This document shows positions 179 to 33,356 of a DNA stretch of 41,450 nt, piece after piece (the first letter of the stretch is position 1; the number at the start of each line of letters is the position of its first letter). A model generated the notes under the pieces. The model saw only the letters and a list, made by a program, of their open reading frames with translations, was not told where the DNA came from and did not search any database. The DNA is from Phycisphaerales bacterium (GTDB lineage Bacteria; Planctomycetota; Phycisphaerae; Tepidisphaerales; Tepidisphaeraceae). Where the stretch lies: the NCBI GenBank assembly GCA_020853095.1, contig JADYZN010000010.1, forward strand, positions 1 through 41,450, written 5' to 3'. The translations under genes and the position numbers were made by a program.

Positions 179-205
179 GCCACGGAGACACAGAGACACG
201 GAGAA
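179..205 (+). repeat. Dispersed CACAGAG-type repeat, copy 1
   Basis: The sequence CCACGGAGACACAGAGACAC plus CGGAG matches six other copies in this window, in either orientation (2464, 3423, 3531, 9248, 35677, 35759). All copies are intergenic. This copy lies between the truncated gene tail and the methyltransferase remnant. Confidence 0.75.
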
Positions 206-338: not shown

Positions 339-917
339 GTGGCGGCCAAGTCTATCGCCCGCCGCCACCAAGGCCAAGGGAAGCGGGATTGGCCAACGCC
401 CGCCTACTATACCTAGTGGTCAGTCGATCCGCGCCTACCTTCCGTTGCGGCTTTTCCGTTGACAATTGCCGAATTTCGGCGTAAGAACGACCCCATCCCC
501 GCCACGATCGGCGCGTTTCAGACGTTCGATGGCGCGTTTTCGCCGTGCGATGGCGCGTTTCAGAGTCCCGATGGCGCATTTGGGAGGTCCGATGGCGCGT
601 TTTAGAAGCGCGGTGGCGCGTTTTAGAGTCCTGATGGCGCGTTTACGAGTCTAAAACGCGCGTTTTAGAGGCGCGGTGGCGCGTTTTGAAGTTTCAATGG
701 CGCGTTTCGGAGTTCCGATGGCGCGTATTGTTCTCGCGTCTATGCATTTAAAGAACAAGATCGTAATGTGAATTATATGGGAAAAAGGTTGGATTGGCCC
801 CTCTTGTGAATACACCGCAGCATTCGTCGCATCTCCGTGGCTGCTGGAAAGCGCAAACCGGATTGTGCATGGACTGACAGCGTTCAATATTCGTTTCATG
901 TAAGGCGGGACAAGTCT
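339..917. other. 579-bp region without a convincing gene, holding the 21-bp repeat array
   Basis: Open frames cross this stretch on both strands, but they arise because the repeat unit is a multiple of three and lacks stops. None has a ribosome-binding site or a recognisable product. The content is a GC-rich part (339-505), the tandem array (506-737), and a more AT-rich part (738-917) directly before the ATPase gene, where its promoter is expected. Confidence 0.6.
506..737. repeat. 21-bp tandem repeat array (about 11 units)
   Basis: Units begin at 506 (one base long), 528, 549, 570, 591, 612, 633, 654, 675, 696 and 717. From 528 on, the spacing is exactly 21 bp. The conserved half is GATGGCGCGTTTT; the other half varies more. 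The unit starting at 654 has lost its first bases, and its junction with the preceding unit makes an 18-bp perfect palindrome at 651-668 (CTAAAACGCGCGTTTTAG). Twenty-one bp is two helical turns, so each conserved half faces the same side of the DNA. It is also seven codons, so any frame through it reads as heptads (MARFRxx). Spacing and sequence do not fit CRISPR. Confidence 0.92.
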
Positions 918-2429
918 ATGGCGAAAAAAACCAAAAATGAGCGAAACTATGTTTCCCCGAATCACCGTACAACGCCGCCCAAGTTAGGGGATATTGTAGC
1001 CGAAAATGACAGTGAACTGGTCCAAAATTACGTCAACCGGCAGAAATATGTGGACCGAGCCCTTGATCTGAACGATCCGGCGGTTTTCTTCGTCGCGCCC
1101 AAAGGCGTGGGAAAGTCCGCCATCCTGCAGATGGTGCGCCTTTTGCGCAGCAAGGATCAACACCGGATCATCAATATTTCCCCGGACAACTTGGCCTTTT
1201 CCGCATTGGCAAATGTGAACGCCAGCACACCTCTCCTTTCAGAGCCGCAGCGCCAGCAGCATCTTTTTCGAACCCTTTGGGATTACGTCCTCATCATTGA
1301 AATACTCAGCCATGAACACGCCTCATCAGGCGGTATGGTAGACTGGATTGCCAGTTTGTTCGCCGATAAGGACTCCAAGGACGCACGGCGGCTTCTGAAA
1401 ATCACGCTCGACGATCAGGGGAACGGGCATACCTTCACAGAGCGCATTCTGCAATTGGTCAAGGAAGTTGAGCTATCCGGTGATGCCGTGGGCGGAGGTG
1501 TGGCCGGGAAGGTGGTGTTGCACAATGCCAACACCGCAGGCACCCAACAGCTTCAATTGCTCTCATTGGTGAACGCCGTTGCCAGGAAGCTTCCGGGTAG
1601 AGTATCGCATCGGTATCAGGTTCTGATCGACGACTTGGATCAGGACTGGAACGGCACACCGCTGCAGAACGCATTCATTGCCGCCCTTTTTCAATCACTA
1701 CGGAAATTGAATTCTCCTGCGATCCGATTTGCTGTTTCCATGAGGCAGGCCATTTATCGCGATTTGGAGCTTCCCGATCGTGACAAGCTCCGGCCTGCCG
1801 TGATACCTGTGACATGGGATCGGTCCGACGTGAAGCAAATGATTCAAAAGCGCATCGTGAGTGCGCTCAATTGCAGGGAATCCGACGTTTGGACCTCGGT
1901 CTTTGATCCTGCCGCCTTTGATCGAATCTGGCTCCACACCTCAGGTACTCCAAGAGAATTGATCCGAATTGCCGAAATGTCACTGGACAATGCCTTTAGC
2001 TCGCATCACAAGCGCGTGCTGGATGATGATGTGTCGAAGGCCATCCGCACATTCTCTCAGGAACGAATCGAGGATTTAGAGAGCGATTGGAGCTTTAAGT
2101 ATCGCGGTATGGGTTACTTGGTCAAATTCCTCAATGGCTGGCCAAAAGAGTTTCCCGAAAAGAAATTCGAGGATTTGGCCGTGGCCGTCGCCAGTGCGAT
2201 TGAGGAAAAGAAACCAGGTTCCGAACGATACAGTTGGGCGAATGGATTTCTGGAAGACTACCACGAGCTTATCAATGTTTTTTTCCGATGCGGTGTTCTG
2301 CAACTGAAGCTTAGCCGTACGGATGAGCCAAGGCCGTATAATCCAGACGGCAGCGAAGAACTACCGCCGGATTTCTGGCTGGCTATCCACCCGATGTATG
2401 CACCGGCTTTGGGACTTGTTGGCGCATGA
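918..2429 (+). CDS. P-loop ATPase resembling the Sll1717 family
   Basis: This 503-aa protein has a Walker A motif near residues 63-72 (APKGVGKSAI) after a YVDRALDLNDPAVFFV strand, and a Walker B-like strand YQVLIDDLDQDW near residues 234-245. The layout (a short N-terminal tail, then RxxYVDRAL, then FFVAPKGVGKS) is that of Sll1717-like P-loop ATPases, a STAND/KAP-like group of unknown role. I chose the ATG at 918 because AAGGCGGGA lies 7 bases before it; an in-frame ATG at 837 would add 27 residues of poor character. No membrane segment is evident. Codons are less GC-biased than in the neighbours, suggesting transfer. The truncated methyltransferase and repeat array upstream make a defence role conceivable, but nothing in the sequence proves one. 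Confidence 0.75.
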   Translation: MAKKTKNERNYVSPNHRTTPPKLGDIVAENDSELVQNYVNRQKYVDRALDLNDPAVFFVAPKGVGKSAILQMVRLLRSKDQHRIINISPDNLAFSALANVNASTPLLSEPQRQQHLFRTLWDYVLIIEILSHEHASSGGMVDWIASLFADKDSKDARRLLKITLDDQGNGHTFTERILQLVKEVELSGDAVGGGVAGKVVLHNANTAGTQQLQLLSLVNAVARKLPGRVSHRYQVLIDDLDQDWNGTPLQNAFIAALFQSLRKLNSPAIRFAVSMRQAIYRDLELPDRDKLRPAVIPVTWDRSDVKQMIQKRIVSALNCRESDVWTSVFDPAAFDRIWLHTSGTPRELIRIAEMSLDNAFSSHHKRVLDDDVSKAIRTFSQERIEDLESDWSFKYRGMGYLVKFLNGWPKEFPEKKFEDLAVAVASAIEEKKPGSERYSWANGFLEDYHELINVFFRCGVLQLKLSRTDEPRPYNPDGSEELPPDFWLAIHPMYAPALGLVGA

Positions 2430-33076: not shown

Positions 33077-33156
33077 ATGCATGGCTCCTTTGAAGACCCA
33101 TTGTGAGTCATCTCACCTTCCCGCACAATCCCCATTTTATGCCCGCCACCCCCCTA

Positions 33157-33230
33157 AATGGAGGGCGGCAGTCCCCTGCCGCCGTTTCCCCCTCTCCCCC
33201 CCAATGGAGGGCGGCAGTCCCCTGCCGCCG
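33157..33230. repeat. Two direct copies of the GGAGGGCGGCAG hairpin repeat
   Basis: AATGGAGGGCGGCAGTCCCC and TGCCGCCG occur at 33157-33184 and again at 33203-33230, 46 bases apart. Each folds as GGCGGCAG-TCCC-CTGCCGCC. They match the left half of the element at 13495. The rest of the 280-bp gap (33077-33356) holds no gene I can support. Confidence 0.8.
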
Positions 33231-33356
33231 CTTTCCCCGACGGCGTGTTCGCAAGAACCCTAAAGCTTGCAACAACAGGCCCCATCATGGTTTACTAGAG
33301 CCTCGGCCGGCCCATTGGCGGGCGGCAGGCAGGATTCAACCGCGGGAGCGCGCACC

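Follow-up and report, generated by a model that had tools for sequence, protein, structure and literature searches.

What is the array of short direct repeats that lies upstream of a P-loop ATPase gene, near the beginning of a contig of a Phycisphaerales bacterium, and what keeps its units so regularly spaced? The stretch of DNA analysed here (positions 1–41,450 of contig JADYZN010000010.1, assembly GCA_020853095.1) is hereafter called the window. A sequence-only reading of it had described ten units at exact 21-bp spacing with one conserved half and an 18-bp perfect central palindrome, and had proposed either a binding array, for the neighbouring ATPase or for a nucleoid protein, or a plain minisatellite.

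The spacing stands, the count does not: the array comprises 11 units, all of whose starts are 21 bp apart, with zero insertions or deletions (table 1). Tandem Repeats Finder (TRF) independently calls it at 505–726, and the lag-21 match reaches 0.695 in the best 210-bp stretch of the window, while 200 dinucleotide-shuffled versions of the entire window gave at most 0.424. The units at both edges are degenerate, the first reading ATCGGCGCGTTT... and the last GATGGCGCGTAT.... Indeed, conservation is concentrated in one half of the unit, as had been proposed: within the contiguous 10-bp block TGGCGCGTTT mean pairwise identity is 0.91, versus 0.48 in the remaining 11 columns (column-permutation p = 0.0005). 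The palindrome is equally real but longer than described, at 20 bp, and is found once, in an odd unit; its length exceeds that given by column-shuffled versions of the array (p about 0.003), and six-base palindromes amount to only 0.09 per unit.

Table 1. Features of the array and of its surroundings (positions in the window).
Feature	Position	Strand	Remark
21-bp tandem array, 11 units	507–737	+	consensus GATGGCGCGTTT + 9-bp variable part
unit starts	507, 528, 549, 570, 591, 612, 633, 654, 675, 696, 717		
conserved 10-bp block TGGCGCGTTT, first full copy	530–539	+	recurs every 21 bp to about 728
perfect 20-bp palindrome TCTAAAACGCGCGTTTTAGA	650–669		formed by variant unit at 654; found once
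CCACGGAGACACAGAGACACGGAG, terminal inverted repeat of dispersed MITE-like element	180–203	+	adjoins most arrays of own genome
CACGGAGACACAGAGACACGGAG, terminal inverted repeat of dispersed element	180–203; 2464–2482	+; -	
DNA methylase gene-start remnant, 28 codons	252–335	-	86% identical to start of methylase gene adjoining the C6 array
P-loop ATPase, Sll1717 family	918–2429	+	NF047389, score above its cut-off

Two known kinds of element were rejected for this array. Comparison of positions 1–2700 of the window with the Rfam families gave zero matches at the gathering score, so that a known structured RNA was discarded. CRISPR arrays are built of identical repeats of about 28–37 bp, with unique spacers of similar length between them; the window array, with its 21-bp unit and a 9-bp variable part that recurs between units, does not belong to this class.

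Searching for the unit in the same genome and in related ones, as had been advised, proved informative. In the own genome, G000, which comprises 3.6 Mb in 77 contigs, the window unit forms exactly one further array, at C36:49225–49476, and a looser search retrieved a third array of a related kind, at C6:33789–34025, with unit TTGGCGCCAAAATGATTCCCG; relatives yielded arrays with other units. The C6 and C36 arrays have their left edge in common, together with some 20 bp of flanking sequence (GCCGCGCC.TGCCCCCATCCGTTGGCGCGGACAAGGGT), and past this edge C36 switches from C6-like units to the GATGGCGCGTTT unit. A full N6/N4 DNA methylase gene adjoins the C6 array (L071 6015–7700), with a C-terminal Mrr_cat match, and the remnant of such a gene beside the window array marks the window locus as related to that of C6, but truncated. 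Given this remnant and the common left edge of C6 and C36, the window, C6 and C36 arrays are dispersed copies related to one another. What all three have in common is TGGCGC, in unchanged phase and repeated every 21 bp, and this motif stays in phase across the paralogous C6, C36 and C10 arrays, the remainder of the unit having changed. From the kinship of C6, C36 and C10, it follows that arrays can be copied to other loci.

Since the looser search had matched arrays with other units in relatives, we searched for tandem repeats without imposing a fixed sequence or period. In these any-period scans, 21 (also 42 and 63) was prominent in non-coding DNA. Unbiased TRF counts (arrays of at least 80 bp and at least 3.5 copies) gave period 21 for seven of the eight non-coding arrays in 736 kb of the 3.61-Mb own genome (the eighth is CRISPR-like), for 7/9 in G066 (400 kb; the remaining two are peptide-like), for all eight in 400 kb of G028, for the only one in 400 kb of G037 and for two of four in 77 other Phycisphaerales loci around putA (1.44 Mb). 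Pooled, and with the one CRISPR-like and the two peptide-like arrays left out, 25 of 27 non-coding arrays have period 21, a figure that comes from parts of genomes, of Planctomycetota only, three of which (G066, G028 and G037) represent one genus. Several loci were selected for matching the first patterns; the least biased counts are those of the contiguous regions G066 C1 and G028 C4 and of the putA loci. Array density differs strongly between lineages, with few arrays in the 77 loci around putA.

The window array is thus one of many in Phycisphaerae whose common property is the period, not the sequence. Their consensus units are mutually no more alike than shuffled units, two related pairs excepted, and among lags 1–69 none rises above background besides 21, 42 and 63; a 10/11-bp sub-period was rejected, lags 10 and 11 being at background. 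Over 37 arrays, at most 40 indel steps were counted versus 1,369 substitutions, a scarcity that is not decisive, since the arrays had been detected at a fixed lag. Arrays of variable spacing, scattered over many unrelated loci and lacking a conserved neighbour, had been named as the mark of a simple minisatellite. The arrays do occur at many unrelated loci without a conserved neighbour, which speaks for a minisatellite, but their spacing is constant, at 21 bp in nearly all non-coding arrays, and this near-universal spacing counts against a plain minisatellite, which does not predict it. Flanking genes show no preferred orientation (15 tandem, 8 divergent, 3 convergent, 3 undetermined). A plasmid or viral origin was rejected, as the plasmid collection gave zero matches to the array and its exact pattern was absent from viral contigs; it was likewise absent from the named genome collection. 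As a separate observation, units 42 bp apart are more alike than 21-bp neighbours in 26 of the 37 arrays, which corresponds to an A-B-A-B higher-order pattern.

Comparison of orthologous sites shows how readily individual arrays come and go. In the congener G001, the orthologous intergenic gap measures only about 130 bp and lacks both the C36 array and its neighbouring repeat element. For several arrays of G028, synteny comparisons likewise gave no counterpart in G037 or G066; at one such site, the flanking matches are 332 bp apart in G028 versus 8 bp in G037. Given this presence and absence at orthologous sites, no single array is essential. The intergenic site upstream of putA (ribF–putA) carries an array in four of six congeneric genomes (G066, G037, G028 and L224), each with its own unit, and none in the other two (G054 and L223). 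The arrays of L224, G028 and G037 begin at an identical boundary and in identical phase, after a conserved GATACCC. L224 and G028 have TGCGCC in common (block P = 0.001) and differ in the remainder, whereas L224 and G037 have the other half in common, but not TGCGCC, with an identical first unit (TGGAAGCTCTTCC; in-phase P = 0.006 overall); between the G028 and G037 arrays, nothing in common was detectable. Wherever homologous arrays could be compared, phase and one half-unit were thus kept and the other half was exchanged. A match of orthologous arrays unit by unit was also sought, and none was found (diagonal and off-diagonal identities are equal), hence each array has been homogenised since divergence. 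These data show that arrays arise and vanish at intergenic sites and that they undergo tandem amplification and homogenisation, which leave degenerate units at their edges.

Arrays of the own genome also tend to have company. The dispersed MITE-like element, whose terminal inverted repeats occur at two places in the window (table 1), is about 150 bp long, with an inner part GGACCATTGGGTCCG...ATCAAAATAAATGG at C36 and C12, and is present in at least 12 copies, usually beside a 21-bp array. This CACGGAGA element lies within 350 bp of five of the seven own-genome arrays, where 0.4 would be expected, and five did not come up in any of 5,000 random placements in intergenic DNA. This association supports a common niche or a common mobility. 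A CRISPR-like array (L100 12743–13327, i.e. G000:C40:92743–93327; repeat about CGGTTCACCCCCACGGGCGTGGGGAAAAG, 61-bp spacing) is also located 0.8 kb from a 21-bp array.

Several explanations for the two-turn period have to be weighed. That the window array is a centromere, operator or partition binding array for the adjacent P-loop ATPase has adjacency in its favour (the gene starts 181 bp from the array), as well as the nucleotide-binding domain of this group of proteins (weak ORC-CDC6-like match), and nothing further. However, the gene belongs to the Sll1717 family and was present in only two of the 61 genomes searched, with a patchy distribution among relatives, and so is not a general partner of the arrays. 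Arrays occur in genomes that lack it (G066, G028, G022, G010 and G077); the C36 array, built of the same unit as that of the window, has a CBM9-domain gene on one side and a sialidase-like gene on the other, and further arrays flank a methylase, glutamine synthetase III, hemerythrin or other unrelated genes. The proposal is thus not supported, and this reading, which is already largely refuted, now seems to us scarcely credible. Separately, the ATPase gives a weak local match to the anti-phage model NF053860. A coding origin, in which the arrays would be live or decayed heptapeptide repeats (21 bp being seven codons), draws on the divisibility of 21 by three, on some 21- or 42-bp arrays of these genomes that look peptide-coding, such as the lysine-rich G066 L123, and on some frames that are open through the C36 array. 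Yet the window array contains a stop codon in each of the six frames, which bears out the earlier view that no gene explains it; its variation does not fall at third positions, and would-be synonymous third positions are among its invariant columns, so that a protein-coding tandem repeat was rejected there. Moreover, the truly coding arrays of the same genomes show many other periods (such as 18, 24, 36 and 45), coding status having been assigned by a simple codon-usage test. We consider the heptapeptide explanation highly improbable. An effect of DNA shape, with intrinsically curved or cruciform-forming DNA acting in place of a sequence-specific protein, would profit from two-turn phasing, which sums any bend within the unit, and from the 20-bp palindrome of the window array. 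Nonetheless, predicted curvature was not above that of column-permuted arrays (mean z 0.2, p = 0.17, with approximate wedge values) and the curvature model was rejected; palindromes were only marginally enriched across arrays (combined p = 0.047), and units do not each hold one, which also led us to reject dyad-symmetric operators. Shape is therefore a very unlikely explanation.

The main rival, and a serious one, regards the arrays as minisatellites without a function, generated in these lineages by some process of replication, repair or recombination whose step is 21 bp; the period would then reflect how they are made and not what they do. Rapid gain and loss of arrays, degenerate edges together with the 42-bp alternation, both typical of tandem amplification, the absence of relation between units, neighbouring genes that are not conserved and the clustering with other repeats (e.g. 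the element near most own-genome arrays) all agree with it. However, a mechanism that steps by exactly 21 bp is not known to us, and uniform neutral drift does not predict in-phase retention of a half-unit nor a contiguous core in some arrays; this rival is quite possible, if somewhat short of an even chance. The reading that we favour, at about an even chance, is that of intergenic satellites that evolve fast but whose spacing is bound to two helical turns, probably one-face arrays of short putative protein-binding cores. B-DNA has 10.5 bp per turn, and 21 bp, i.e. two turns, is the smallest whole number of bases after which helical phase recurs; successive cores would therefore be reachable by a protein on one face. 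Each unit would consist of a core of about 10 bp and a spacer of about 11 bp, and the spacing would be held at two turns by a putative DNA-binding protein filling the cores side by side along one face of the helix. Candidate functions of such a protein are nucleoid packing or a domain boundary, or local repression, and fast turnover of units would fit a quickly evolving binding specificity. In the arrays themselves, variation over the unit is uneven, unlike the expectation for neutral drift, both in the window array and across the 37 arrays (Fisher p = 6e-6 for a contiguous core), by a test that assumes independent variation of columns and whose outcome short-tract gene conversion could mimic. 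This half-unit conservation, together with the half-unit retention between homologous arrays, favours binding over plain drift; against the core model, only 10 of the 37 arrays have a significant contiguous core (p < 0.05) when taken alone. A more specific version of the favoured reading, namely a Phycisphaerae satellite system that conserves the helical period alone and whose lineage-specific cores are replaced blockwise, array-wide, as a fast-evolving one-face binding protein shifts its target, appears unlikely.

How do these arrays compare with described repeats? Plasmid iterons (R6K, RK2, pSC101) lie at the origin beside the rep gene, with one sequence per replicon. Like them, the arrays consist of direct repeats about two turns of the helix long, in which a conserved core is joined to a less conserved part, and their phasing would keep cores on one face, but they are chromosomal, numerous, located beside unrelated genes and of a sequence that varies between arrays. 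An iteron array was rejected, the neighbour being an Sll1717-family ATPase and other loci flanking metabolic genes, with no plasmid-collection match; the arrays are not iterons because the defining adjacent initiator and origin are missing. In eukaryotic satellite DNA, unit length is better conserved than sequence, variants spread within the array and old units are found at its edges. The arrays are comparable in that unit length outlasts unit sequence and older units are left at the edges, whereas they differ in being very short (about 5–15 units), in belonging to a compact bacterial genome and in having a two-turn and not a nucleosome-length unit.

The window array fits the definition of a minisatellite, i.e. 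head-to-tail copies of a 10–100 bp unit outside genes, and bacterial minisatellites or VNTRs are likewise short intergenic tandem units, homogenised, with degenerate edges and presence or absence between relatives. VNTR sets are nonetheless mixed in unit length, as in Yersinia pestis (1–60 bp; PMC3689786), whereas nearly all non-coding arrays here have 21 bp and many different units. STRR-like short tandemly repeated heptamers (TAACTGA repeats; PMC4679880) are also abundant intergenic direct repeats with a regulatory role that is unknown or proposed, but their 7-bp unit has a fixed sequence, unlike the 21-bp units. Heptamer-like repeats (GGGCATT/CAATGCC) that resemble cyanobacterial STRR sequences were seen in intergenic regions of G066, where they adjoin 21-bp arrays (L072 5871–6041 and 6528–6664; L117 8239–8400) and are distinct from them. 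REP/BIME and intrastrand triplex repeats (PMC3733652, PMC4666352), which are interspersed copies of one conserved motif, are similarly intergenic, dispersed and palindromic or structured, but do not form exact-period tandem arrays with a variable unit. In the open-access literature searched, subscription papers being outside its scope, we found no description of 21-bp arrays in Planctomycetes or bacteria, nor of period-locked arrays free of a common sequence. By structure, the arrays are accordingly bacterial minisatellites, for which the period lock with differing units is the apparently undescribed part.

Sequence-similarity searches pass over a class of repeats whose defining trait is the period instead of the sequence. 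Should the two-turn rule reflect protein binding, these arrays would point to a system of chromosome organisation or regulation, as yet undescribed, in the Planctomycetota, a phylum known for unusual nucleoids; should the rule be mutational in origin, they would disclose a step of some enzyme that is measured out by a 21-bp ruler. Elsewhere in the window, positions 33150–33238 hold a tandem duplication of a 46-bp unit (CCCCCCAAATGGAGGGCGGCAGTCCCCTGCCGCCGC...), which is G/C-rich and has inverted symmetry.
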